Positions 1 to 14,187 of a stretch of DNA of 63,005 bases are shown one piece after another. Below the pieces are notes generated by a model. It saw only the letters and a list, made by a program, of their open reading frames with translations. It searched no databases and was not told where the DNA came from. Source of the DNA: Sphingomonas sp. LC-1 (lineage in GTDB: Bacteria; Pseudomonadota; Alphaproteobacteria; Sphingomonadales; Sphingomonadaceae); contig NZ_JANZXB010000015.1 in NCBI RefSeq assembly GCF_025371035.1, forward strand, positions 1 to 63,005. Direction: 5' to 3'. Numbering within the stretch: the stretch's first letter is position 1; every line of letters begins with the position of its first letter. The position numbers and the translations under genes are program-made.

Positions 1-2
1 CC

Positions 3-101
3 GACGACATCGACGAACGCTTCATCCGCCGCGCTGTCGCCGCCATCGCCATCCGCCGACACGCCGGCAAACTCGCCTACCAGAAAAGCCGCGCCCAATA
101 G
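3..101 (+). CDS. C-terminal fragment of an unidentified protein
   Basis: An open frame enters from the left edge and stops with TAG at 99-101, giving 32 residues that begin DDIDERFIRR and end in KSRAQ. They are rich in Arg and Ala and could be a C-terminal helix. I do not recognise the family. It reads toward the truncated ardA remnant and meets its broken end, so this gene end and the ardA break may be one rearrangement junction. The edge position and lack of a recognisable domain keep confidence low. Confidence 0.3.
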   Translation, partial: DDIDERFIRRAVAAIAIRRHAGKLAYQKSRAQ

Positions 102-316
102 CAAGACGGTCTACCGGCCACGCTTACCTCATAGTCGTGAATGGCGTATTCCTCCGCGTCCTCGACGGGGGAACGGGCAAGCATCGCGGCAATCTCGTCC
201 CTGATCTGGTCCGCGTCCTGATCCGCGTCGATCCAAGTGCCATGCAAATAGCCGTTATTGTAGGCGGCAAGGCAGGCGACATAGATGCGGGGGGTGCTGT
301 CGGATACGTTGGTCAT
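77..316 (-). pseudogene. ardA: Truncated ArdA antirestriction protein (ardA remnant)
   Basis: The 79-residue product begins with a typical ArdA N-terminus: after a short leader come RIYVACLAAYNNGYLHGTWI, DADQDADQIRDEIAAML and EEYAIHDYE. ArdA is a DNA-mimic protein of plasmids and conjugative elements that inhibits type I restriction enzymes and is normally about 165 residues. Here the likeness ends at residue 63 (base about 128). The remaining 16 residues do not resemble ArdA, and the acidic C-terminal half is missing. It is therefore probably a non-functional remnant cut by a deletion or insertion, and evidence that this end of the window came in on a mobile element. The start is the ATG at 316. 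Confidence 0.7.
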
Positions 317-508
317 TTCTCTGATCCTCGGGTCGGAAGGTCAGCGAAGCGGAACGCCGCGCCTGACCTTCTGGCCGTCGCCGAGACCGGGTGTGCAAAC
401 GGAAGGAGGCTTCGCGGGGAACCGGCTGCACGGAGCGCGGCACGCGCGTAGGAAGCTGGGCGGAAGCCTCTTGAAGTGCGCGGAGGGCAGAGCCCTAAGT
501 CTCAATCC
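317..508. other. Intergenic between ardA remnant and herA
   Basis: About 190 bases between the start of the ardA remnant and the stop of the HerA gene. A GGAG-like motif precedes the ardA ATG on the minus strand. I see no additional gene; the overlapping frames are not protein-like. Confidence 0.4.
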
Positions 509-2704
509 TCAGAAAGGAATTTCGTCATCCAGATCGGGAGAAGTGGAATTGTTCATGGGAACCGCACCCTCGCTAGATGCCGTTGGCGGTTCCGTGCTTT
601 GAGCGTCAACTGCGATAGGGGCTGTCCAGTGCCGGGCGATCCGATGCCAATCAACTTCGCGCTTGTTGGCACCTGTCCAAACATCCCAAAAATCAGGGTC
701 GGCGGATTGAGGCTGATGCTCCTTTGCCAACTCGTCGATCTCGACCAGTACGGGAATAGGCGTCGCCCATCCCAACAGGATCGCCTGTTTTGATGGCAAG
801 CTGGGCAGATCGCGCAGCAACCCACCCACGTTGTCTGGTACAAGACGCGCGACAAGGTTTTGGTCGGAATCGTTGACTATACGATGGAGAATGAAGGTGT
901 TGCACTGAGCCAAAACGGTCGGCGAAAGCTCTGATGGTCGCTGCGACGACAGCACCAGACCTAAGCCGAATTTGCGTCCCTCGCGGGCAATGCGCTCGAA
1001 AATTTCCCGGCAGAGCTGGTTAGGACTGGACGCCGGGCCTTCGTCGTCCTTACCGCGTCGAATGAAGGTGTGAGCTTCTTCCAGCACGAGGACTGTGGGC
1101 AGTGATAGCCCCTCTGCATTGAGCCGCCGATAGCGTTGCAGAGATTCAAAAATCACCCGGGCCAGCACGGCCACAACGACGTGAACGACCTCGGAGGGGA
1201 CCAAGGAAAGGTCGACGACAGCTAGCGGGCCATTGCGTGCGCCGTCATCACCGATATAACTTTTTAGCCATTCCTCGAAGCTGGTTGGCGGTACCTTTCC
1301 AATGACGCTTCCAAGCCGTTGATCCGCGAGCATGCTGCGAATACGAAGGCCAAGCGTGCTAATAAACGCCGCGAAATTTCCGCCTTGCTCGGCAGCCAGA
1401 TGATCCAGATGTTCGGCAAGCAGTGTGACATCGAATGGAACTGGAGCGTCTTCACTGATTGCGGCGGCCGCGCCGACAATATCCGGTAGGGCATCTGTAA
1501 CAACAGCGATGGCGTCACGGGCCGATTCAAGATCGCCGACCAAGAAGTCGTTAAAATAGGTCAATCCCGACCGCCGGGAGTCAACAATTTCAGTGATTGT
1601 GGCAGAAAGCGTTTGCAATAGCGTCGTCGCTGGGTCATCGACCGATGCTGCAAAATGAGCGGAATCCTCGGCGATGCCGCCCAGCAAGCGCGCGCAATCA
1701 AACCGGGGGCCGACCGCTCCGGCGAAGGCGGTGCTTCCCATATTGAGCATGGCGGTAATGCGACCACTTGAAACAAGCAGATGCCGCTTGATGGTGGCTT
1801 CTCGCGGTACATCTTCATGATGGCCGCTCTTCAGTTCTCGTATCCCGCGCAACAGAAGCGGACGTTGCGCACCCGGCTGGGCATGGGCAACGGCAGTCCA
1901 TTCATGGCCGCTCCAAAGCCATGCCGGAACATCCAGCTCTCTTTCAGTTCCAACGACTGGTGGGACTCGGAACAGACGGAGTTGATCTCCTCGATCCGCA
2001 AAGGCTTTGGCATATTCGCCATTGGGATCTAGAACGATGAAGCGCGCGTTCGGATGGCCTTTTCGGCCCGCGTCACTCATCGCTTTTGCTCCTGCGTCGA
2101 GCGACCAGCGGATCAGTCCGGCAACCGTACAGGACTTGCCACTGCCCGTATTGCCGAGCACGGCGAGATGTCTGCCGAATAGCTTGTCGGGATCGACCTT
2201 GATCTCGGCGCTCGATGCAAGGGCCGAAGTCCCGATACGGACACGCCGATCCGACTCCTTCGCACCAACGATAGCCTCGACCTGTTCAGGTGTCGGCATG
2301 AGTACCTGATCGCCCACTGACGGAAACGCGGCTACGCCGCGCGACAGTTCATACACTGTCTGCTTCGATGCTCGGTCCCGCCGAGACGTGAGTGTGCCGA
2401 CAGGCGAGACGCACATCTTTCGCAGTGGAAACGGAAGGTCGATCAGACCGAAATCTTTCAAGCCCGACCGTTTGGGATAGGGCGACCGCTCTATCCCGAT
2501 CCATGATATGTAGGCGACCGTCGCGCCGGCCTCGTTAGGAATAAGGACATAGCCATTGAGGCGAGGAAATGCGGCAGGTGTTCCTGTGTTCAGCGCCGTT
2601 GCCTGCGGTGCATCCAATTCGAGCAGGATGCGGATTTCATCAGGCGAAACAGACTCAACCGCGCCGATAACCAAGCCAGCAATGGACTCTATGGGCGTGG
2701 TCAT
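509..2704 (-). CDS. herA: HerA-family hexameric ATPase/translocase, partner of SIR2 protein
   Basis: This 731-residue protein has an N-terminal beta-rich (HAS-barrel-like) region over about residues 1-140, then a HerA/FtsK-type ATPase. Walker A is GNTGSGKS at 184-191, Walker B is TVLVLEEAHTFI, and the AREGRKFGLG and SSQRPSEL segments typical of DUF87/HerA follow. HerA proteins are ring ATPases that move DNA; in defence loci they assemble with a nuclease or SIR2 partner. Its ATG overlaps the stop of the SIR2 gene (ATGA, 2701-2704), which implies translational coupling and co-expression. The tail ends in an acidic segment, DLDDEIPF. Recombination-repair HerA paired with NurA is excluded by the neighbours. 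The family call is firm; the defence role is inferred from the partner. Confidence 0.88.
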   Translation of the reverse strand: MTTPIESIAGLVIGAVESVSPDEIRILLELDAPQATALNTGTPAAFPRLNGYVLIPNEAGATVAYISWIGIERSPYPKRSGLKDFGLIDLPFPLRKMCVSPVGTLTSRRDRASKQTVYELSRGVAAFPSVGDQVLMPTPEQVEAIVGAKESDRRVRIGTSALASSAEIKVDPDKLFGRHLAVLGNTGSGKSCTVAGLIRWSLDAGAKAMSDAGRKGHPNARFIVLDPNGEYAKAFADRGDQLRLFRVPPVVGTERELDVPAWLWSGHEWTAVAHAQPGAQRPLLLRGIRELKSGHHEDVPREATIKRHLLVSSGRITAMLNMGSTAFAGAVGPRFDCARLLGGIAEDSAHFAASVDDPATTLLQTLSATITEIVDSRRSGLTYFNDFLVGDLESARDAIAVVTDALPDIVGAAAAISEDAPVPFDVTLLAEHLDHLAAEQGGNFAAFISTLGLRIRSMLADQRLGSVIGKVPPTSFEEWLKSYIGDDGARNGPLAVVDLSLVPSEVVHVVVAVLARVIFESLQRYRRLNAEGLSLPTVLVLEEAHTFIRRGKDDEGPASSPNQLCREIFERIAREGRKFGLGLVLSSQRPSELSPTVLAQCNTFILHRIVNDSDQNLVARLVPDNVGGLLRDLPSLPSKQAILLGWATPIPVLVEIDELAKEHQPQSADPDFWDVWTGANKREVDWHRIARHWTAPIAVDAQSTEPPTASSEGAVPMNNSTSPDLDDEIPF

Positions 2705-4026
2705 GCTGTTGTTCCGCCGCCTAACAATTCGCCGAACTCATCGGTAGTCGCAGCAGCAGCGTCTGGTGCGGACGGATGCTCTGGCGGGCGGTGCTTCAAT
2801 AGTTCGGTCATGCGCCCGGTGATGTAATCAAGCGTTGGTTTCGGGAGGTAGTTTTCGATCAACGTTGTGAGGTCACCGAAATGGGGACCGATTAACAGCG
2901 ATACCTGCGCCTCGCGAGTCCGTGAAAGAAAGCCTTTCAAGCGGTCATCCGCCGAGTAAGCGAGCACCACGAGATGGGTTGATGGGATCGTCAGCATGTC
3001 GAGCAACACGCGGTTGATGTGATCGTCCCCGAAGCCATAGCCGTAAGTGACGACAACCGCATTGGGCCTGCACGTTGCGGCGGCAAAATCACGAAACAGC
3101 TCTGCGTACGGATACTGTGTCGTTTCGACATCCTTCGCCGGGTTCGGATAGATCATCACCGTATCGACCGGCTTTTTGGGCAGATCGGTGTGATCGGTGG
3201 GGGCACCGAAGGGTATTCCCTTCCGCAAAATCTTCCGATCTGTCGTGCTGAATAGCCAGTCGAGAGAACCATGAAGTTTGGTCAGGCGGATGACGCCTTC
3301 CATGAAGCGTGGTTCCCCGCGAATGCCCGGCGGGTTGTAATGCACATCAACCTCGACGCGGGTTGACCGGAAAACAGGCGTGAGCGCTCCAACAAAACGG
3401 TCGATAATACGAAGCCCGGCGAGGTCGCAACCGTGCTCAATCAACCTGTCGTAGTTCGTAGTGAAGACATGCAGCCTCTCGCGCGAAGCCGCGCGACTGG
3501 CGAAGCTGAGTAGGAACGACTGAACTGCCCCTTCTGCAATGACTCGCTTTGCCGGATCGCCGCTGATCAGACCGGCTTCAGTTTTGAGAAGTGATTCAAG
3601 GAAACCACGGAGCTGTACATCCATCGCGGATTTAAGGGTGGCGGCTTTAGCCATATCAATGATCTTCAACCCCTCATAAACCGAAAGGGCTGCCCGGAAC
3701 TGATCCTCGATATTGGCCGCACCACGCCCCATGCGTGCCGCCTCGTTCGCAGCGAAGTCGTCGATCTGCTTGTCGAACTCGCTCCCGAACACAACCTTGC
3801 CCATGCCTGTAGCATTGGCTCCGGCCATATATCCCACGGCGGTCGTGAAGCCGCTACCTATCAAAAGATTCAAGTGTTCGGCTTGAAAAACAGCGGATAG
3901 CCAAGGCTCGATCCGCTTTCGCGCTGACGCGATGAATTTATCTAGCGTATCGTCATCCGCAGGTAGATCGCTCCATGACTCGGAATGGCTCCCAACGCGA
4001 TACGCATGCTTATCATCAAGATTCAT
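2701..4026 (-). CDS. SIR2-family NAD-hydrolysing defence protein
   Basis: A 441-residue protein with an N-terminal SIR2-like Rossmann domain. Visible motifs are the nucleotide loop LLIGSGFT (Gly57-Gly59), FTTNYDRLIE (Asn191, Asp193) and RLTKLHGSLDW with the likely catalytic His252. A later TYGYGFGDDHIN segment is typical of prokaryotic antiphage SIR2 proteins. Such proteins deplete NAD+ on phage infection, and when linked to HerA they form the SIR2-HerA (Nezha) type of system. I chose the ATG at 4026, preceded by GGGGGA; an in-frame GTG at 4041 would add five residues. It starts about 40 bases after the OLD gene stop and overlaps herA by four bases. The effector role is inferred from family and context. 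Confidence 0.85.
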   Translation of the reverse strand: MNLDDKHAYRVGSHSESWSDLPADDDTLDKFIASARKRIEPWLSAVFQAEHLNLLIGSGFTTAVGYMAGANATGMGKVVFGSEFDKQIDDFAANEAARMGRGAANIEDQFRAALSVYEGLKIIDMAKAATLKSAMDVQLRGFLESLLKTEAGLISGDPAKRVIAEGAVQSFLLSFASRAASRERLHVFTTNYDRLIEHGCDLAGLRIIDRFVGALTPVFRSTRVEVDVHYNPPGIRGEPRFMEGVIRLTKLHGSLDWLFSTTDRKILRKGIPFGAPTDHTDLPKKPVDTVMIYPNPAKDVETTQYPYAELFRDFAAATCRPNAVVVTYGYGFGDDHINRVLLDMLTIPSTHLVVLAYSADDRLKGFLSRTREAQVSLLIGPHFGDLTTLIENYLPKPTLDYITGRMTELLKHRPPEHPSAPDAAAATTDEFGELLGGGTTA

Positions 4027-4064
4027 ATTTCCCCCGAACACACCCTACACGCCCTGAGGCTCGA

Positions 4065-6071
4065 TCACCCTGAAAGGTGTTTTTCAAGAGCAGCATTAGT
4101 TGCCTTGAATAGGCGCTCGAACCGGCCTTCACTTGCGGCGGGCAAAACCGACGACGGGTCGCTGGCCATTTTTTGTAGGAACAGCCGCGTTGGCCGTGTT
4201 TTGTGAAACGCAATAGTAAGTGCATCAAACGCCGCCTCGAAGCGGCGGGCTATGCGAGGAATGCGGGCATTCAATTCCAACGTTTTGCCCTTCAGTTCCT
4301 TGGCGTAGGCTTCGTGCACAAGTGCTTCGTAAACAGCCGAGTCCAGTATATCTTCAATGTCGGCTTCAGTGGGGGGAGCTTCGAATGCTTCGCTTACGAA
4401 AACGATGTTATCCGACCGGATAAGCTTGCCTTTCACCAAATCGTCGCGCGTTGCCTTGGCGTCCTTTTCGTCATCGAATAGGACAAGCACGTTCAGTTGT
4501 TCAGACGTTAGCAGCGCTACCATGTAGTGAACTTTTTGCGCGCCGCCGGCTGGCGTTATGGTCAACCGGTCATCGAGGCCAACTTTTCCTTGCTCATTCA
4601 GATATGCCGAAACCGCCGAAAGAATCCAAAAGTCGGTGACGCCTTCAACAACCAGGTTGTTCGGCCCGATAAACAGGCTTTGGGCAAGGTCGTATCCAAG
4701 CGCGGCTTGCAACGGAAACAGGGTGCGGGCGTCACCGTTCGGGTCGTTGGAAACGGTCGTGCCTTCTTCTTCGGCAATATTGACCGTTCGTACCCAATCC
4801 AATTGGTGCGTTGGGACCATGAACGGTGAGTGTGTCGTATAGACGATTTGGTTGGTGAAATCGTCTTCGAGGTGTCGAAGCAAATCACCTTGCGACCGCG
4901 CGTGGAGATAGAGACCCGGTTCGTCCAACAGCAAAATCGCGCCATCGGCTTCGCCGTCTTCGGTATCTGCCGCGAACACGACATAGAACGCGAAAAACCA
5001 TTGGAAGCCACGGCTTCTTTCATCAAGGTTCACTTCAACGTCATACGTACTGTTAGGATCGGAAATCAGCGTGTCGAAATGGTGTGCGTCGAGGTTGAAG
5101 CGTACCTTCAGTTCGCGGTCCTTCCACCGCTTGCGAATGGCGGTCGTGACGACGGCACCAGCACGGTTGGCTAATTGCCCACGTGTTTCTTGGTCATCGC
5201 TTTGCGACAGTTCGTTGAGCTTTTCAGGGCTAAGCCCGGCAACCTTACAAAGCTTTTCAAAATTTACGTCGGCGGCTGTCTGCTGCCCTTCATTTTTACG
5301 CTTGAGGAAGCGAGCAATATCTTGATGACCTCGTATTTCGGGGTAGTCTTCAAGATACATGAACTTTGGCAAGCGTTCGATAATCCAACCGCGCGCCTTC
5401 GAGTGTGCTTCTTCGCTTCCCGGGATGGCTTCGGCCATCTCTTCCAAGGACACAATTTTTTGGTCTTGGGCGTCTGTAAGTTCGATGTCCGCTGCTGCAA
5501 GCGCCTGCCGAAGCGCGGCAAGCGCCGAGGTCGCCGTTGCAGCCCATTTCGCGGCAGTCACTCCGGCACCGATGGCAACCACGAATGCGTCTGAAGCCCG
5601 CTCCAACTCGGCCTTTGCTTCGCCCGTCAACTTCGAGGCTTTTGCCTTGACCGCCGCGTCAATCTTACGCGCTTCGGCTTTAATCGCAGCGAGGTCGAAA
5701 GGGGTTTCCGGGGCGTCGATGCCAACATACCGCTTGTCGCCATATCGACGGCCAACAGTGACCTCAGACACACCTTCAGCGGCCGGCCAAATCTCAGCTA
5801 GGCGTCGCTGTTCGTACTCGCTCAATTGCCATGTGGAGTCTACAACCGGGGTGTGGTCGTTACATTCTGAAAGCTTCCGATGTCTCGGAAAATCCTTGAT
5901 GGGATTGAGCGCCTTGAAGCCGTCTGCTGGGTTTAGACTATGAAGCGCCCGCAAGACGTTCGACTTGCCGCTCTCGTTTCGACCTAGTAACGCCGTGATA
6001 CGAGAAACATCAACTTCACCGCTATCGTTGATGGATCGAAAATTCCTTACGCGAAAAGACTTGAGCTGCAT
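4065..6071 (-). CDS. OLD-family ATPase with C-terminal TOPRIM nuclease domain
   Basis: A 668-residue protein with an ABC/SMC-like ATPase: Walker A GRNESGKS (30-37), signature-like LDERSRGFQWF (349-359), Walker B LLLDEP (380-385) and switch His414 in TTHSPF. The middle, about 130-200, is Ala/Lys/Glu-rich and probably coiled coil. A C-terminal TOPRIM domain follows, with VVEGVTD (Glu476) and LVLFDDEKDA (Asp533/534), the metal ligands of OLD nucleases such as GajA. It is therefore likely an ATP-regulated DNA nuclease in phage defence. The ATG at 6071 gives MQLKSFRVRNF, the usual OLD start; a start at 6113 would add 14 residues. A run of ten G on the coding strand lies 6 bases upstream and overlaps the ribosome-binding site. 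It is first in an operon with the SIR2 and HerA genes. No GajB-type helicase is nearby. Confidence 0.85.
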   Translation of the reverse strand: MQLKSFRVRNFRSINDSGEVDVSRITALLGRNESGKSNVLRALHSLNPADGFKALNPIKDFPRHRKLSECNDHTPVVDSTWQLSEYEQRRLAEIWPAAEGVSEVTVGRRYGDKRYVGIDAPETPFDLAAIKAEARKIDAAVKAKASKLTGEAKAELERASDAFVVAIGAGVTAAKWAATATSALAALRQALAAADIELTDAQDQKIVSLEEMAEAIPGSEEAHSKARGWIIERLPKFMYLEDYPEIRGHQDIARFLKRKNEGQQTAADVNFEKLCKVAGLSPEKLNELSQSDDQETRGQLANRAGAVVTTAIRKRWKDRELKVRFNLDAHHFDTLISDPNSTYDVEVNLDERSRGFQWFFAFYVVFAADTEDGEADGAILLLDEPGLYLHARSQGDLLRHLEDDFTNQIVYTTHSPFMVPTHQLDWVRTVNIAEEEGTTVSNDPNGDARTLFPLQAALGYDLAQSLFIGPNNLVVEGVTDFWILSAVSAYLNEQGKVGLDDRLTITPAGGAQKVHYMVALLTSEQLNVLVLFDDEKDAKATRDDLVKGKLIRSDNIVFVSEAFEAPPTEADIEDILDSAVYEALVHEAYAKELKGKTLELNARIPRIARRFEAAFDALTIAFHKTRPTRLFLQKMASDPSSVLPAASEGRFERLFKATNAALEKHLSG

Positions 6072-6077
6072 TCGACA

Positions 6078-6087
6078 CCCCCCCCCC
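6078..6087 (-). repeat. Homopolymer C10 (G10 on coding strand) at the OLD gene ribosome-binding site
   Basis: Ten consecutive C on the plus strand. On the coding strand this is G10 followed by TGTCGA and the ATG, so the tract supplies the Shine-Dalgarno sequence. Such tracts can slip in length during replication and change translation. Confidence 0.75.
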
Positions 6088-6113
6088 TTGAAGCACGAGG
6101 ATAGGCGGTTCAT

Positions 6114-6648
6114 GAGCCTCTCTCAATACAGTATGTGTCATCAAGACCAGCAACGAAGCTGCTGGAGCATGACCGCATCCCTCGGACTGGCTGTGGCATA
6201 GCGTCCGTGCACTAAAGGGCGTTGGGGCGTTCCTCAATTATCAGCTAAAAGCCACAAGTGATCCTCAAGTACAGTGACCGAAAGTGAAACGGGGGGAGCA
6301 AGGGGCGCGGAACACAATCAACCAAAGCCTCACGGGTCATTTGGGAGGGCTATAGCGTAGGTGTAGTTCTCTGTTTCTTCGGCTTCGGCCCGCCAAATTT
6401 TGCTCAAGTCATTAGCTTTTTGATATTTCAGCGTTTTCGAACCCTGGCTTCCACATCTCCCGGCGACACGCATTTCGCGCGGGTCCGGTTGTCGGCGACC
6501 GACTTTCGACCGGCGCATGGTCGGTCAATTTCCTAGCCGATCGTCCTGCCGCCACGTCATCGTAAGGAAACGCGCCGGTTACTGACCTGGATCATTGACG
6601 CAGAAAAATTCGGCATGTCATCTGCAGCGATGCGGGGACCTTCTTGAT
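6114..6648. other. Long intergenic region: promoter side of the defence operon and likely island edge
   Basis: About 530 bases without a convincing gene. The left part must carry the promoter for the leftward OLD-SIR2-HerA operon, but I could not fix a -35/-10 pair. At 6432-6460 there is a stretch which, read on the minus strand, contains CCAGGGTTCGAAAAC. This resembles a tRNA T-arm and could be an attachment-site remnant. Base composition changes here from AT-richer on the left to the high-GC chromosomal style on the right. A 62-residue minus-strand frame (6330-6518) looks like a chance translation. Confidence 0.45.
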
Positions 6649-7302
6649 ATGCCGACGGCGCATTGTGTCTCTACGATCGACGGCTTCATTCTGGAGGCGG
6701 ACAGGGGCTTTCTGGACCTTGTCGGGCGCCGCGAGGACGAGATATTGGGTATGTCCTACAAGGATATAACCCACCCTGACGATCTCGATCGCAGTGGCGC
6801 GATGCTCGCGTCGCTGATCAAGCGGGCGGCCCCGGTGCGGTTGCAGAAGCGCTATATCCGGCCCGATGGCTCGTTGATCGCGGCCAATCTCTACGTCTCG
6901 CGCTTCGACAATCCCGATCGGCTGGTCAGCACCTTGTTCTGGAACGAGGTCGGGCGTGAACTTCCCCCGGCGCGCTTATGGGAAATGGCGCTGCGCGTGC
7001 GTCGGTTGCGCGAAGTGCGACGGGAGGAATTCGGCGTCGATGTCGCGATCAGCCCGCTCGGCGATATTCTGAACTGCATCTATCTGGCGGAGGCGGAAGG
7101 GCGCATCGTTGGCAGTCCGGAGATTTCCGCCGAAAGCAAATTGCCGCCCCATATCGTCACGCGGTGGGTGAACCACCTGACCGATCAGGGTGTGCTCGAA
7201 CCCGGCTCGAAGATGGGCCGGAACGTGCAATTCACCCATCTTGGCATATCGAAGATGGAGCGGATGCTCGCCTCAGCGTATGATGTGCCCGTTTCCGACT
7301 GA
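6649..7302 (+). CDS. PAS-domain protein with C-terminal winged-helix (MarR-like) DNA-binding domain
   Basis: A 217-residue protein. Residues about 1-100 form a PAS domain of the type in GGDEF/PAS sensors (DGFILEADRGFLDLVGRRED, YKDITHPDDL, IRPDGSLIAAN). Residues about 120-217 form a winged helix: SPEISAESKLPPHIVTRWV as the helix-turn-helix and LTDQGVLEP.. HLGISKMERML as the wing and final helix. It probably senses a small ligand or redox state and binds DNA directly, without a kinase. The ATG at 6649 follows a GGGGA motif; a TTG at 6595 would add 18 poorly conserved-looking residues. Its 3' end overlaps a small opposing gene by 30 bases. Targets are unknown. Confidence 0.75.
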   Translation: MPTAHCVSTIDGFILEADRGFLDLVGRREDEILGMSYKDITHPDDLDRSGAMLASLIKRAAPVRLQKRYIRPDGSLIAANLYVSRFDNPDRLVSTLFWNEVGRELPPARLWEMALRVRRLREVRREEFGVDVAISPLGDILNCIYLAEAEGRIVGSPEISAESKLPPHIVTRWVNHLTDQGVLEPGSKMGRNVQFTHLGISKMERMLASAYDVPVSD

Positions 7303-7440
7303 CGCGGCCTCGACCATCTGGATGACCCCGTCGAGATGCGCGGCAGCGACCGACAGGCCTTGCTCATCCAAGAGCGCCAGAGCCTCTTGAAGCAGCGCCT
7401 CTATCTGCGCCAGCCGCGCTTGGTCAGGAGAGGTCCGCAT
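7273..7440 (-). CDS. Small conserved-looking 55-residue protein
   Basis: A short frame with a clear amphipathic helical pattern: MRTSPDQARLAQIEALLQEA, then LALLDEQGLSVAAAHLDGVI, ending in NGHIIR. Small proteins of this kind, an ATP-independent-looking two-helix unit, are common in sphingomonads, but I know no function. It starts at the ATG at 7440 and overlaps the end of the PAS/winged-helix gene tail to tail. The heptad-like Leu/Ala spacing and third-position GC favour a real gene over a shadow. Confidence 0.6.
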   Translation of the reverse strand: MRTSPDQARLAQIEALLQEALALLDEQGLSVAAAHLDGVIQMVEAASVGNGHIIR

Positions 7441-8007
7441 TGGCTGGCTCCATCATCAATGGGTTTCCTTCGAAAGTTTAGCCGATGGAATCGCGGCGTA
7501 AATGGGAAATTTGGCAAGCCGCCAACCATCCGCCGCGAAACGCTTCGGACCGGGCGCCATTCTTTGCGAGCCGCGCCGCCCGGGGGTGATCGATGAATCC
7601 GAACGGCGCGACCTGGCATCACGACGGCCTTGCGGCAGGCTTCGTTCCATTCGGTATCGGTTGCGGAGCAATAGGAGAATGCAGGGCCTGCCAGTTGGGA
7701 GAAGAAGCAGGCCCTGCGGTCGAACGCCGTTAGGGAGTTGCGCCCGACTCGGCCCCAATAGGGTCCTTTTGAACATCTGTCATTAACAGAAGGCAAGGCC
7801 AGATTGAAACAGGGGACGGCGAGCCGCCCGATGATCCCCGGTGAAATGCCGAACGATGATCGGGTCCCCGATCATGGCCGTTGGCCGCCTGCTCATGATG
7901 CATCTGTCGCCTGAGACATGACAAAAATTCGTTCTTTCTTCATGGCGTTAAATGGGTCACCGTCATCGACGAACAGTGAATCTCATACAGGCGATTGAGG
8001 GGGCGGG
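7441..8007. other. Long intergenic region without a convincing gene
   Basis: About 570 bases. Two weak frames overlap here: a plus-strand frame at 7593-7733 (46 residues, starting MNPNGATWHH) and minus-strand frames between 7401 and 7796. None has a family match that I recognise or clear codon bias, so none is called. The last part, with AT-richer sequence around 7918-7950, should hold the promoter for the GH95 gene. Confidence 0.4.
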
Positions 8008-10488
8008 ATGTCGACCGATCTGACGCGGCGGGGCGTGCTGGGGGCAGGGGCGTTTGCGGCTGCCGCGGGTGGGCTCGGCAACCTGCCGTTGCTCGCGCAG
8101 CCAGTGGCCGCCGACGACTCGCATCGCCTGTGGTTCGATGCCCCCGCGACTCGCTGGGTGGAGGGTCTTCCGGTCGGTAACGGACGGCTGGGCGCGATGG
8201 TCCGCGGCGGGACGGATCGCGAGATCGTGTCGCTGAACGAGGACAGCTTGTGGTCGGGCTATCCGACTCCCGACACCAGTTCCGAGGGCCAGGCCGCGCT
8301 GCCGGGCGTTCGCCAAGCCACGCTGGCGGGCGATTATCACGCCGCCGACGAACGGGCGAAGCGGCTGCAAGGCCCCTATTCCAACAGCTATGCGCCGCTC
8401 GGTGATCTGGTGATCGCGCTGCCGGGGGGCGGGGCGGTGAACGAGTATCGGCGCGAGCTCGACCTCGACCAGGCGGTGATCGGTGTCGCCTATACCGCCG
8501 GCCGGACGCGCCACAGGCGCGAGGTGTTCGTGTCGCATCCCGCGCAACTGGTCGTCGTGCGGCTGACGGCGGAGGGTGGGACGATCGATGCGGACCTGTC
8601 GCTGTCCACCCTGTTGCGCGGATCAGCGCGGGCCGAGGGCCATCGGTTGATCCTGCATGGCAAGGCCCCGGCCTATGCCGCGCCCAATTACCAGCAAGTG
8701 GCCGATCCGATCCGGTATGACGATGCGGCCGGACGCGGCATGATGTTCGCGGCGTTGGCCGAAATCGCGACGGAGGGCGGGCGTGCCAGCCCATCGGGCG
8801 AGACCATCGCGGTGCGCGGCGCGCGCAGCGTCGAGATCCGCATCGCCGCCGCCACCGGCTTTCGCCGTTTCGACCAGCCACCCGACCTGCCGATCGCGAC
8901 CATCGAGGCGAAGGCGGTCGCCGCCCTGGCGGCAGCGCGGGGCAAGAGCTATGCCGCCCTTCGCGCGGCGCATGTCGCGGACCATCGCGCGCTTTATCGC
9001 CGTGCCGAGCTTCGGCTGGCGGGCGAGGCGGAGGGCACCACCGCACAGCGCCGCGCGGCAAATGAGCGGGTCAGCGATCCGGGGCTGGCCGCGCTGCTGT
9101 TCCATTTCGGCCGATACCTGTTGATCGCCAGCTCGCGCCCCGGCACCCAGCCCGCCAACCTTCAGGGCATCTGGAATGCCGAGGTGCGGCCGCCCTGGAG
9201 CAGCAATCACACTACCAACATCAATACCGAGATGAACTATTGGCCCGCCGAGGTCGCCAATCTCGCCGATTGCCATGGCGCGCTGTTCGACTGGATCGAG
9301 CATGTCGCGGTGCGCGGTCGCCGCGTCGCGCAAAGCTATTACGGCATGCCCGGCTGGTGCCTGCACCATAACAGCGACATCTGGGCGATGGCGAACCCGG
9401 TCGGCGAGGGCGATGCGACGCCGGTCTGGGCCAATTGGCCGATGGGTGGGCCATGGCTGATGCAGCATCTGTGGCAGCATTATCGTTTCGGTGGCGACCT
9501 GACCTTCTTGCGGGAACGGGCCTGGCCGCTGATGCGTGGCGCTGCCGAGTTCTGCGCCGCCTGGCTGGTCGCCGATCCGGCGAGCGGTCGGTTGACCACC
9601 GCGCCGTCCATCTCGCCCGAGAATGAGTTTCTGGCCCCCGACGGCAAGAAGGCGTCGATCAGCGCGGGTTGCACGATGGACCTGGCTTTGACCCGCGAGC
9701 TGTTCGCCAATTGCATCGCGACCGCCGATTTGTTGAACACCGACGCGGCCTTCGCGGCCCGACTACGCGGGCTGGTCAGGCGGCTGGAGCCCTATCGGAT
9801 CGGCAGCCAGGGGCAGTTGCTCGAATGGTCGCACGAATTCGCCGAGGCCGAGCCTGGCCATCGCCATATCTCGCACCTCTATCCGCTTTATCCCGGCGAT
9901 GAGTTCACGCCCCGCCACACGCCGCAATGGGCCAGGGCGGTGGCGACCTCGATGCAGCGTCGCGAGGACAATGGCGGGGCGCAAACGGGCTGGAGCCGCG
10001 CCTGGGCGACCTGCATCTGGGCGCGGATGGGGGATGCGGGCCGCTCCGGCGGGTCGATCGACGCCTTTTTCAAGGGAAGTACGCTCGACAATCTGTTCGA
10101 CACCCACCCGTCGAACAAGGGGCCGATCTTCCAAATCGACGGCAATTTCGGTATCACCGCCGCCATCGCCGAGATGCTGTTGCAAAGCCATGACGGCGCG
10201 ATCGCGCTGTTGCCCGCACTGCCCCCGGCCTGGCGGGACGGAAGCGTCCGTGGCTTGCGCGCGCGGGGCGGGGTGACCGTCGATCAGCGCTGGGCGGCGG
10301 GGATGCTGGAGCAGGCGGACCTGCTGTCCGCGCACGGCGGAGAGTTTCGGGTGCGCCTGCCCGCCGGTCGTCGCCTGCGTGCCGCGACCCGGGGCGGGGT
10401 GGCCGTCGCGACGCGTAGCGAGGCGGACGGCCTGCGCTTCACGGCACGGGCGGGGGATCGGATCACGCTGATCATCGGTGCCGCCTGA
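8008..10488 (+). CDS. Glycoside hydrolase family 95 alpha-L-fucosidase, Tat-exported
   Basis: An 826-residue GH95 enzyme, which inverts and removes terminal 1,2-alpha-L-fucose (some members act on alpha-L-galactose) from plant or host glycans. A Tat-type signal with the twin arginine in [10 protein letters not shown] (residues 5-14) is followed by an Ala-rich segment, so it acts in the periplasm or on the surface. The N-terminal beta-domain starts at [16 protein letters not shown]. The (alpha/alpha)6 core carries the catalytic-region motifs [20 protein letters not shown] (likely general acid Glu) and [16 protein letters not shown] (likely Asp). Length fits the family. It converges with the GMC gene, only 19 bases away. 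No other fucose gene is adjacent. Confidence 0.9.
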
Positions 10489-10507
10489 GCGTCACGTCAC
10501 GCCGCAG

Positions 10508-12046
10508 CTATTGCCCCGATGCCAGAAAGCGATCCGCAGTGCGCAACGACAGGGCCATGATGGTCAGCGCAGGGTTGGCGGCCAGCGCGCTGGGGAAGAT
10601 CGAATTGTCGCAGATCAGCAGGTTGGGAATGTCGAAGCTGCGCCCATCGGCATCGACGACCGCTTCGTCGCCCTTCTCCCCCATGCGGCATGTGCCGATG
10701 GTGTGCGCCGAACGATCGACCGCGAAAATGTCCTGCGCCCCCGCCGCCGCCCAGATCGCGGTCATCGTCCGGCGGGAATGCGCATCGATCGCCCGTTCAT
10801 TGTCATGATAGCTGAAGTCGATCCGTGCCTTGCGATGACCGAAGCCATCCCGCTCATCCGACAGGGTCAGGCGATTGTCGTCATGGGGGAGGCATTCGCC
10901 GTTGATGCCGATCCCGGCCATGCGGTTATAGCCGTAGAGCAGATGCTGTAGCCGCTCCCCCCAGAGCCCCGCCCCGCGCGCCAGCCCTGTCGCGAGGTTG
11001 ACCGGCAAAACGCCCAGGCTCTGGATCAGATACCCACCGGCACATCCCGCTTCGGCGGGACGCATCATGTCCTCGGTAATCAGCGAAGACGGATAGCCCC
11101 GGTTCATCCGCATATCGTCGTCGAACCGACCCCAGACCTGGGTGGCGACATGCGCCATGAAGTTGCGCCCCACCTGCCCACTGGAATTGGCGAGATCGAG
11201 ATTGAGCAGCAGGCGCGGCGTTTCCACGCCGCCCGCACACAGGAATACAGCGCGGCATCGCTGGCGGCGTTCCTCGCCCGCCTGGTGATAGATCACGGCA
11301 TCGATCCGCCCGGCATGGTCGCGATCGAGGGAGAGGACACGGCATTCGGACCGGACCTCCGCCCCGTGCGCCACGGCATAGGGGAGGTAACTGGTATCCA
11401 TGCTGGTCTTGGACGCATTCCGACATCCCTGGTGACAGGTGCCGCAGTTCACGCACGCCTGACGCTGCCCCCAATGCGGCTGGTCGCGGTCGCGGGAAAC
11501 CAGTGCGGCGGGCGCGTCGGTCGCAGTGATGCCCAGCGCCGCGCAGCCCCGCGCCATCGCATCGGCCGATGCGTTGCGTGCCACGGGGGGATAGGCATAG
11601 CGGCGCGTGTCGTCCCAAGGATAATGAGCGGGCCCGGAGACGCCGGTGAAATCCTCGACCTCCTCGATATAGGCGGTCAGCTCGGCATGGGGGATGGGCC
11701 AGTCCGCGCCCTGGCCGGTCAACGTCTTCAGCATCAGGTCGCGCGGGTCGGGCCGTGGACAGAAAGCGCCCCAATGCAGCGTCGATCCGCCGACGCCCAT
11801 GCCCGAATTGTTCGATCCGAACGCGGTGGGGTCCGCACCGCCGCTCAGCCGTTCCTCCATCCAATAAATGTCGGCGGCCACTTCGTCGGCGACATGGTCG
11901 TTGGGACGAAAGGCGCGCCCGGCCTCCAGCGCCACGACCGACAGTCCCGCCTTCGCCAGCCGCGCCAGCAGCGGTGCCCCGCCCGCGCCGGTGCCGATGA
12001 CCACGGCGTCGACCACATCCCGGCCGTCATAGGGAGGGCGGCTCAT
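10508..12046 (-). CDS. GMC-family FAD oxidoreductase (sugar/alcohol dehydrogenase large subunit)
   Basis: A 512-residue flavoprotein with the FAD-binding GTGAGG motif at 18-23 and the GMC C-terminal signature (HTIGTCRMG, then NLLICDNSIFPSALAANPAL). A cysteine cluster C-x2-C-x2-C-x3-C (CVNCGTCHQGC) lies in the middle, as in gluconate 2-dehydrogenase-like GMC enzymes. The start was set to the ATG at 12046, which overlaps the upstream stop as ATGA. A start at 12097 would add residues with no likeness to the family. It is coupled to a protein ending in a gluconate-2-dehydrogenase subunit 3 domain, so the two probably form one dehydrogenase complex. No signal peptide is obvious on this subunit. 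The substrate cannot be read from sequence. Confidence 0.85.
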   Translation of the reverse strand: MSRPPYDGRDVVDAVVIGTGAGGAPLLARLAKAGLSVVALEAGRAFRPNDHVADEVAADIYWMEERLSGGADPTAFGSNNSGMGVGGSTLHWGAFCPRPDPRDLMLKTLTGQGADWPIPHAELTAYIEEVEDFTGVSGPAHYPWDDTRRYAYPPVARNASADAMARGCAALGITATDAPAALVSRDRDQPHWGQRQACVNCGTCHQGCRNASKTSMDTSYLPYAVAHGAEVRSECRVLSLDRDHAGRIDAVIYHQAGEERRQRCRAVFLCAGGVETPRLLLNLDLANSSGQVGRNFMAHVATQVWGRFDDDMRMNRGYPSSLITEDMMRPAEAGCAGGYLIQSLGVLPVNLATGLARGAGLWGERLQHLLYGYNRMAGIGINGECLPHDDNRLTLSDERDGFGHRKARIDFSYHDNERAIDAHSRRTMTAIWAAAGAQDIFAVDRSAHTIGTCRMGEKGDEAVVDADGRSFDIPNLLICDNSIFPSALAANPALTIMALSLRTADRFLASGQ

Positions 12047-13422
12047 GCGCCGATCCCCATCCCGATTTCCGTTGCACTCTCTGCCCTGTGCTGCCACGCC
12101 TCGCGATCATTGGCGGCGGTGAGGGCATAACCCTGTTTGCGCGGGCCATCGCCACCGACCGCGAAGCCGTCATAGCCGATGGCGGCCATGGCGGACGGCG
12201 ATGCGATCCACTGGCGGACGATCTCGGCACGGACATCGGTGAACCACAGCGCCATCTGCTCGGGGGACAGGCAGGCGTCGTCACCGGCGATACCCGCCCC
12301 GCCCGCCGCCATCTGCGTCAGCCAGTCGGCCTGCACCGACCTTTCCAGCAAGGCGAAGCCGCCCGTCAGGGCGTCCAGCGTCGCCAATCCGCGCGTCCAG
12401 GCGATCGGATCGGGGGGAAGGTCGGCAAAACGCCAGCCATCGCCGGGCCCTGCGACGATGGCGGCTTCGATATGGCGCGCCAGATCATGATCGGCGCCCC
12501 GGTCGGGCAGGATATGCGCGATCAGCGTGGCGACAAGCGCGCATTGATGGTCCGACCAGCCGGTTTCCGGCCGCTCCGCCGGACGTGTCCGCTCCAGCAT
12601 TGCCGCGCGGGTTCGGCGGCTGACCCGGTTGGAATCGAGGACGTGCACGAACCCGGCGGGCAGGATCGCGGCGGCGACCGAGGCGGCATGCTCGGCGATC
12701 AGATCGGCCAGCGCGTCGGGCTGTTCATAGGGGATGAGGTGCGCGGCGCCTTTGACGACGCGGATGTCGGCATGGCGATAATGCGGCAGGTTCAGGCGGC
12801 GCTGGGCGTCCTCCCCCAGATCGCCGTCTTCCGCCCCGGCGACGATGAGCGCGGGAATGGAGATCCGACCGGCCGTCGCGCGCCAATCCTCGCGGCTGCC
12901 GCGCTCCAGCCAGCCCAGCCACGCCTCGCGGCTGGAGCGACGCACATCCTCTATCGCCTTGTCGCGCAAAGGTTCGGGCAGCGGCGCGGCCGTATTGGCG
13001 TCGACAAAGGTCTCGGCATCCTCCCGGCGGATCGGGCCATTTTCGACCCAGCCGATCATCGGCGCGCGGCGATCCTCTTCCATCGGTTCGGGCGAGGGTG
13101 GGGAGGCCGCGACCAGCACCACGCCGACCACGCCTGCCAGCCCGGCCTCGCCCGCGACAGCGCGCGCCGCGACGAGGGTGGCGATCTTGCCACCCATGCT
13201 GTGGCCGACCAACAGGCAGGCGGTCAGTCGCCGCTTGCGGATTTCATCGGCCAACCCGTCCGCCATGGCGGTGACATCCGCATAGCCTTGGTCCGCATGC
13301 TCACCGAAACCGGGCAGGTCGAGCGCGATGCCGGGCATGGGGGCAAGCCGCTCACGCACCCGATCCCATTCGCGCCCGCTAGCGCCCAGCGCATGAAGAA
13401 AAACCAATGTCGGTTGGGTCAT
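12043..13422 (-). CDS. Fusion: alpha/beta hydrolase with C-terminal gluconate 2-dehydrogenase subunit 3-like domain
   Basis: A 459-residue protein. Residues 1 to about 245 are an alpha/beta hydrolase, with oxyanion-side FLHALGASG, nucleophile elbow GHSMGG (Ser75), an acidic residue in AGAEDGDLG and the catalytic His in GAAHLIPYEQP. Residues about 255-459 resemble the small subunit (subunit 3) that accompanies GMC dehydrogenases, including GWSDHQCALV and EQMALWFTDVRAEIVRQW. One hypothesis is that the GMC partner oxidises a sugar and the hydrolase opens the resulting lactone or ester. The reading frame is continuous and no internal start with a ribosome site is evident, so the fusion looks genuine. 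It is first in the two-gene operon and diverges from dps. Confidence 0.75.
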   Translation of the reverse strand: MTQPTLVFLHALGASGREWDRVRERLAPMPGIALDLPGFGEHADQGYADVTAMADGLADEIRKRRLTACLLVGHSMGGKIATLVAARAVAGEAGLAGVVGVVLVAASPPSPEPMEEDRRAPMIGWVENGPIRREDAETFVDANTAAPLPEPLRDKAIEDVRRSSREAWLGWLERGSREDWRATAGRISIPALIVAGAEDGDLGEDAQRRLNLPHYRHADIRVVKGAAHLIPYEQPDALADLIAEHAASVAAAILPAGFVHVLDSNRVSRRTRAAMLERTRPAERPETGWSDHQCALVATLIAHILPDRGADHDLARHIEAAIVAGPGDGWRFADLPPDPIAWTRGLATLDALTGGFALLERSVQADWLTQMAAGGAGIAGDDACLSPEQMALWFTDVRAEIVRQWIASPSAMAAIGYDGFAVGGDGPRKQGYALTAANDREAWQHRAESATEIGMGIGA

Positions 13423-13617
13423 ATCGTCTCGCCCGAGTAAATCCCATGCTGGACGTTACAAAAGCGGGACCGTTCCCCGTCCCGACCGACGATCAAAAAT
13501 TAATTTGGATTATAAGTGGGATGATTTGGTTCCCGCTTTTCCGTCGATAATTTCATGGAACCCTGTCCGCCCGAAAAGCGCTTCGGCACGAACTGCATCC
13601 ATCATAGGAGTGACGTC

Positions 13618-14187
13618 ATGGCCGATACCGACCAAGCGCAGCCGCAATACAAGATCGAATATCGCGAAATCCAGGCATTCAACACGCTGAAAGACTTGCC
13701 GCTCGGGCTGTCGGACAATGCCCGCAAGCAGAGCGTGTCGATCCTCAATCAGGTGCTAGCCGACACGATGATGTTGCGCGACCTGTACAAGAAGCATCAC
13801 TGGCAGATGTCGGGCGCCACCTTCTATCAACTCCATCTGCTGCTCGACACCCATTATGAGAAGCAGGCCGAACTGGTCGACATGGTGGCGGAGCGTATCC
13901 AGTCGCTGGGCGGGATCAGTATCGCGACGCCGCACGACGTGGCCGAGATGACGAAGATCGCACGCCCGCCGCGTGGTCGCGAAGATGTGCCGACCATGCT
14001 CGCCCGCCTGCTGGAAGCGCACAAGATCGTGCTGGAAGAGGCGCATGAAGGCGCCAAGGTCGCCGACGAGTCGGGCGATGACGGCACCAACGACCTGTTG
14101 GTCAGCGACATCATCCGCTCCAACGAGCCGCAGGTCTGGTTCATCGGCGAGCATCTGGCCGCCACCGCGCTGCAACGCGCGGATTGA
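13618..14187 (+). CDS. dps: Dps/ferritin-like DNA starvation protein
   Basis: A 189-residue Dps-type four-helix protein that oxidises and stores iron and protects DNA during stress. Ferroxidase-type motifs are visible in LRDLYKKHHWQMSG (His pair) and in HYEKQAELVDMVAERIQSLGG (Asp/Glu), with a late EPQVWFIGEHL helix. The start at 13618 follows TAGGAG with good spacing. An upstream AT-rich stretch (about 13,495-13,530) is a likely promoter region shared with the divergent hydrolase-fusion gene. The family also includes bacterioferritin-like proteins, but the length and HHW motif favour Dps. Confidence 0.9.
   Translation: MADTDQAQPQYKIEYREIQAFNTLKDLPLGLSDNARKQSVSILNQVLADTMMLRDLYKKHHWQMSGATFYQLHLLLDTHYEKQAELVDMVAERIQSLGGISIATPHDVAEMTKIARPPRGREDVPTMLARLLEAHKIVLEEAHEGAKVADESGDDGTNDLLVSDIIRSNEPQVWFIGEHLAATALQRAD

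Follow-up and report, generated by a model that had tools for sequence, protein, structure and literature searches.

OLD-family proteins have been sorted into class 1, encoded by lone genes that do not neighbour other defence genes, class 2, in which GajA is accompanied by GajB, and class 3, the OLDs of retrons (PMC10568477). The class 1 member YbjD gives phage phenotypes upon expression, and its Toprim domain is dispensable (PMC13261556). SIR2–HerA pairs, also known as Nezha, are described as assemblies of 12 Sir2 on a HerA hexamer (PMC12198126) that deplete nicotinamide adenine dinucleotide (NAD+) upon infection (PMC11559045). The two kinds of gene meet in a classical Vibrio cholerae island, where Gabija, whose GajA belongs to the OLD family, neighbours SIR2-herA, and SIR2-herA keeps most of the protection when the rest of the island is deleted (PMC11559045). 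Here we analyse a stretch of 63,005 nucleotides from Sphingomonas sp. LC-1 (NZ_JANZXB010000015.1, positions 1 to 63,005; hereafter the window), near one end of which an OLD gene is followed by a SIR2 gene and a herA gene. A preliminary description of this DNA had proposed a composite anti-phage system with the OLD gene as its obligate first gene.

Hotspots on mobile elements combine fixed flanks and swappable defence cargo with anti-defence genes nearby (PMC12629846, PMC9122126). SIR2 plus HerA is listed among such cargo, and PARIS, a defence triggered by an anti-restriction protein, was introduced in the same study (PMC9122126). Our analysis of gene identities, motifs, selection, exchange joints and the independent occurrence of the parts indicates that the window very probably holds two known defence modules that act separately and became neighbours by cargo assembly beside the antirestriction gene ardA on a conjugative element.

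Three intact defence genes on one strand

The three minus-strand open reading frames (ORFs) are confirmed as real and intact (Table 1). They exceed what chance would give, because the proteins match family profiles and because the ratio of non-synonymous to synonymous substitution (dN/dS) is low between the window and the one other intact triad, locus L032 of Sphingopyxis yananensis (OLD ~0.08, SIR2 ~0.11, HerA ~0.09). For OLD we use the methionine at 6071, residue 15 of the longest ORF, which is where the OLD ORFs of loci L033, L034 and L039 begin. For SIR2 we use the ATG at 4026, which is preceded by a G run and common to L032 and L054; at its longest, the listed ORF spans 4041–2701 (446 aa, GTG start). 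With these starts, the arrangement and residues given in the preliminary description hold: three genes on the same strand, Toprim residues Glu476 and Asp533/534, SIR2 residues Asn191/Asp193/His252, the HerA Walker A motif, a 4-base SIR2/herA overlap and an OLD stop 38 bases from the SIR2 ATG (about 40 had been stated).

Across 23 aligned OLD proteins, Glu476 and Asp533 are invariant and Asp534 varies. In SIR2, numbered from the ATG at 4026, Asn191 lies in TTNYD and His252 in KLHGS; HerA has Walker A (GNTGSGKS) at 184 and Walker B (LVLEEAH) at 539. Asn191 and His252 are of the NADase type.

Table 1 Features of the locus in window coordinates
Feature	Position	Strand	Details
Contig-end sequence unrelated to ardA	1–127	.	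Probable insertion-sequence end
ardA antirestriction gene, 5' part (residues 1–63), interrupted	128–316	-	Other fragment at G000:C11:123-470
HerA stop to second exchange joint (391)	391–508	-	From sequence comparison with relatives
HerA gene	509–2704	-	731 aa; PADLOC PDLC04098 1.2e-304; Pfam DUF87/HerA central domain 3.3e-21
HerA residues 681–731, second segment swapped relative to L054	512–664	-	dN 0.78
HerA residues 286–440, exchanged between close relatives	1385–1849	-	41% identity to L054
SIR2 gene	2701–4026	-	441 aa; PADLOC PDLC04079 9.5e-200; Pfam SIR2_2 4.2e-7
OLD–SIR2 gap, 38 bases (OLD stop to SIR2 ATG)	4027–4064	-	Contains exchange joint 4054
OLD-family ATPase/Toprim gene	4065–6071	-	668 aa from homologue-type start; full ORF 6113–4065, 682 aa
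Upstream leader of OLD	6114–6395	-	Common to L032, L033 and L039; similarity ends at ~6393–6403

OLD and SIR2–HerA occur mostly apart

A scan of genome contigs yielded 22 loci with OLD relatives, against which the three window proteins were run by tblastn. Complete SIR2 and HerA genes stood beside OLD at one of them, L032, with 97–98% identity on all three proteins, and a decayed SIR2 with a 72-residue remnant at another, L039 of Thalassospira. The remaining 20 had neither gene beside OLD; in two of these, L037 and L047, only 74 and 394 bases follow OLD, too few to judge, and two, L051 and L053, hold a partial OLD. Sampling by order (396 genomes each; SIR2 at an expectation value (E) of at most 0.001, OLD at E ≤ 1e-30) placed SIR2 relatives in 33 genomes and OLD relatives in 10, shared only by the window's own genome, G000, where chance would give ~0.8. 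Sampling by class (385 genomes each; both at E ≤ 1e-50) found 8 genomes with OLD and 1 with SIR2, G000 once more being the only one with both. Plasmid searches are reported for 40 of 362, 50 of 63, 40 of 205 and 60 of 195 matching records; the 5.6-kb triad block as a DNA query matched 205 plasmid records, and none of the 40 matches listed was covered to 80%.

SIR2–HerA pairs without this OLD were found at L054, L055, L058–L063 and L081. One of them, L054 (genome G047, same genus; SIR2 90%, HerA 79% identical), has no OLD in 19 kb and begins 12 bases past a methyltransferase/XhoI-type restriction pair; genome G008 carries a pair (SIR2 54%) with ardA behind it. Six plasmid SIR2 loci (Rhizobium, Methylocella, Sinorhizobium, Bradyrhizobium, Xanthomonas and Escherichia coli) showed no OLD relative at E ≤ 1e-20; those examined came from the 40 listed of 362 matching records, plus one record, L123, present in two of the plasmid lists. 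The HerA match is split over two frames in L060 and lies in two distant pieces in L062. At the seven loci measured, SIR2 starts 7, 12, 21, 38, 38, 65 and 113 bases behind the preceding gene. In L123 (L123:11732-15763) SIR2–HerA lies 7 bases behind a Tn3-family recombinase gene and looks like transposon cargo.

An obligate OLD–SIR2–HerA system with regular three-gene co-occurrence is thus not supported. The count that the preliminary description had called for gives the full triad at 1 of 22 OLD loci, and both patterns that it had named as speaking against itself are seen, SIR2–HerA regularly occurring without OLD, and OLD occurring mostly without SIR2–HerA or with other partners. What survives of its composite reading is that the parts are of defence type and that SIR2–HerA is a recognised pair; the OLD gene as obligate first gene does not. 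A true three-component system, in which OLD and HerA would detect or process the DNA of phages and permit SIR2 to degrade NAD+, is therefore extremely unlikely. The single strand, the 38-base gap with no terminator, and a triad intact in two genomes at dN/dS ~0.1 and transferred as a block all fit such a system, but besides the 20 OLD loci and the nine named SIR2–HerA loci that lack the other part, the same OLD is paired with PARIS-like genes elsewhere, and in L039 it has stayed open at dN/dS ~0.07 despite the decay of SIR2.

A class 1-like OLD and an ordinary SIR2–HerA pair

The OLD protein matches Pfam AAA_15 (4.1e-19), AAA_21 and the PADLOC Old profile (3.2e-23), with a Toprim profile score slightly below cut-off. 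Its closest PDB sequence is 6P74, the OLD of Thermus scotoductus (E = 3.7e-9), which is also the top Foldseek match of the predicted model (E = 9.9e-4; mean predicted local distance difference test score 67.9); the Toprim fold was matched too. The protein has the domain plan of class 1, an N-terminal ABC ATPase and a C-terminal Toprim with conserved acidic residues, and resembles the solitary OLDs 6P74, P2 Old and E. coli YbjD in that it appears mostly to have no fixed partner. Unlike 6P74, with 528 aa in its record, it has 668, and unlike class 1 as defined (PMC10568477) it stands ahead of SIR2–HerA. Most of its 22 relatives are without SIR2 or HerA, some lying beside restriction or PARIS-like genes.

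That the gene instead belongs to class 2 (Gabija) or class 3 (retron) and has lost its partner is very unlikely. Directly downstream come SIR2 and HerA rather than a GajB UvrD-like helicase, and Pfam shows no such helicase in the neighbours tested, profile annotation having covered a minority of those at the 22 loci. NCBIfam retron and PtuA models score far below their cut-offs. Near the locus there is no Rfam match and, between 6113 and 6595, no upstream minus-strand ORF of at least 80 aa; a reverse transcriptase was not searched for.

Judged from sequence, the SIR2 and HerA of the window are an ordinary SIR2–HerA (Nezha) pair. Like the known pair (PMC11559045), they are adjacent on one strand in the order SIR2 then herA with a 4-base overlap, and have the NADase-type Asn and His and both Walker motifs; their matches to PADLOC defence profiles (Table 1) agree with the earlier view of the pair as a known defence. 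Unlike known SIR2–HerA, they fall well under the NCBI equivalog cut-offs (NF042942 and NF042944; SIR2 112.8 of 500 bits, HerA 219 of 850) and are remote from solved pairs (best PDB matches E = 1.9e-19 for SIR2 and 1.1e-50 for HerA), and for these reasons the pair appears to be another clade of SIR2–HerA.

Defence pairs exchanged at fixed joints

The slot between OLD and ardA holds different genes in relatives. In L033, from a metagenome-assembled genome (MAG) labelled Devosia, and L051, from Arboricoccus pini, similarity to the window runs from 4931 or 6403 to 4054, breaks, and resumes from 391 to 127 in the ardA leader; L051 keeps only the 3' part of OLD. Where the window has SIR2–HerA, both loci have another pair (L033:9505-12053 and L051:10862-13414). 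In L033 this pair matches the AriA ATPase (PDLC04164, 4e-37) and AriB Toprim (PDLC02983, 1.8e-7) profiles of PARIS; AriB has no Pfam match, so we call the pair PARIS-like. The window has no such pair. The L051 and L033 copies are 98.8% (AriA) and 95.2% (AriB) identical. A further arrangement occurs in L048 (MAG labelled Armatimonadetes; L048:1237-7679), where an OLD of 61% identity has HsdS on one side, with a 4-base overlap, and HsdR on the other, all within a type I restriction operon.

OLD is under purifying selection whichever neighbour it has, with dS/dN relative to the window of 0.113/0.009 in L032, 0.195/0.013 in L033 and 0.150/0.010 in L039. In L039 it is open over all 668 codons at dN/dS ~0.07, with SIR2 decayed. 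The decayed SIR2 start there (L039:12049-12264) lies behind the intact OLD, with a tRNA-Ser gene ~200 bases beyond, and looks like the remnant of an OLD–SIR2 arrangement.

The carrier element and ardA

Base 1 of the window is a contig end (G000:C7:1), and ardA is cut at ~base 127. Contig C11 of this genome opens with a second ardA fragment (query residues 59–176); the ardA relative in L033 matches Pfam ArdA at 4.1e-41. Each of the two contig ends carries a piece of the gene, and the pieces have a few codons in common, the pattern left when an insertion sequence lands in a gene. C11 encodes a relaxase with DUF3363, TraG, a TrbB-like ATPase, TrbL and a large serine recombinase, and its relatives of RepA and TraF are 97% and 88% identical to those of L054. 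We infer that C7 and C11 belong to one element. In L051 (L051:14381-16087) the reading frame of a large serine recombinase extends into a tRNA-Ser gene at its 3' end, placing an element end at a tRNA gene, and the loss of similarity at ~6395 in L032, L033 and L039 probably marks the element end, as expected there.

Among 366 genomes, ardA occurred at 13 places in 12, with SIR2–HerA near three (G000, G047 and G008) and OLD near one (G000); the other ten ardA loci gave no match to the three window proteins at E ≤ 1e-6, one of them (L122) spanning only 5.8 kb. The locus resembles the described hotspots (PMC12629846, PMC9122126) in its fixed flanks, exchangeable defence cargo and nearby anti-defence gene, and differs from those reported there in being an alphaproteobacterial element with its slot between OLD and ardA; we found no account of such an element in the literature searched. 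Ordinary chromosomal genes adjoin the element at 6595–14187, for a PAS protein, a GH95 glycosidase, a GMC oxidoreductase and a ferritin-like protein.

A segment swap within HerA

Identity between the HerA proteins of the window and L054 is 97% over residues 1–285, 41% over 286–440 and 95% over 441–680, with dN of 0.019, 0.59 and 0.025, respectively, and 0.78 over residues 681–731. Residues 286–440, placed between Walker A and Walker B, are nearer to L058 and L059 (55–57%) than to the sister L054, which marks a recombinational swap. The segment is probably the helix bundle.

Discussion

We propose that an integrative conjugative element, with putative ends, has its cargo end at this locus, which carries two modules. 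The first would be a solitary, class 1-like OLD ATPase/Toprim nuclease, its nuclease action assumed by analogy with published systems. In the second, again following published systems, a HerA hexamer would hold SIR2 and switch it on during infection as an NAD+-consuming enzyme. The block probably arose by entry of a SIR2–HerA module into the slot bounded by the OLD 3' end and the ardA leader, the place of the PARIS-like pair in relatives. The modules may share a transcript by read-through, but each would work alone. The Gabija plus Nezha island of V. cholerae (PMC11559045) offers a published parallel, an OLD-family gene next to SIR2-herA. Unlike in the window, the OLD there is GajA with GajB; SIR2-herA gives the main and Gabija a minor part of the protection, that is, they act separately.

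Several observations weigh against this reading. The triad block of the window is 96.4% identical to that of L032 over 6271 bases and the flanks are unrelated, so the block moved as a unit. The terminator scan found no minus-strand site within the 38-base gap. The OLD–SIR2 joint is common to L039, which makes three genomes with the joint, as one descent. The plasmid L123 (165 kb, Enterobacter asburiae) has OLD (49%) and SIR2–HerA (48%/44%) within 7 kb, on opposite strands and separated by 4.3 kb that include a Tn3 transposase. Finally, the two PARIS-like loci count as a single exchange because their copies are near-identical.

Block transfer and a terminator-free gap therefore leave room for an operon with an additive effect. 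One lineage might have joined independent modules into a working operon with shared expression, OLD first and SIR2–HerA or the PARIS-like pair as an abortive back-up, with no physical dependence. To the short gap and block transfer can be added a slot behind OLD that has been filled twice with other defence pairs, and a SIR2 that starts 7–65 bases behind another gene at six of the seven loci measured. Simple cargo stacking, however, gives the same layout, and OLD and SIR2 do not co-occur above chance; we regard such an operon as doubtful, though worth keeping in view. An extension of the idea is more speculative and in our judgement improbable: OLD would be a constant first layer and the OLD–ardA slot a socket for a second, abortive layer (SIR2–HerA here, PARIS-like in Devosia and Arboricoccus), with a shared transcript and mutual guarding, such that phage or incoming anti-restriction proteins beating one layer would trigger the other.

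We thus favour two separately acting modules assembled as cargo. No description of an OLD–SIR2–HerA unit turned up in the literature searched by title and abstract, mostly outside subscription papers, and the present analysis removes the false lead of a new three-part system; island neighbours are easily mistaken for operons. The more interesting by-products are the exchange of defence pairs at fixed joints on a conjugative element and the segment swap in near-identical HerA proteins, which makes the swapped segment a candidate for the part of HerA that meets phage or DNA.

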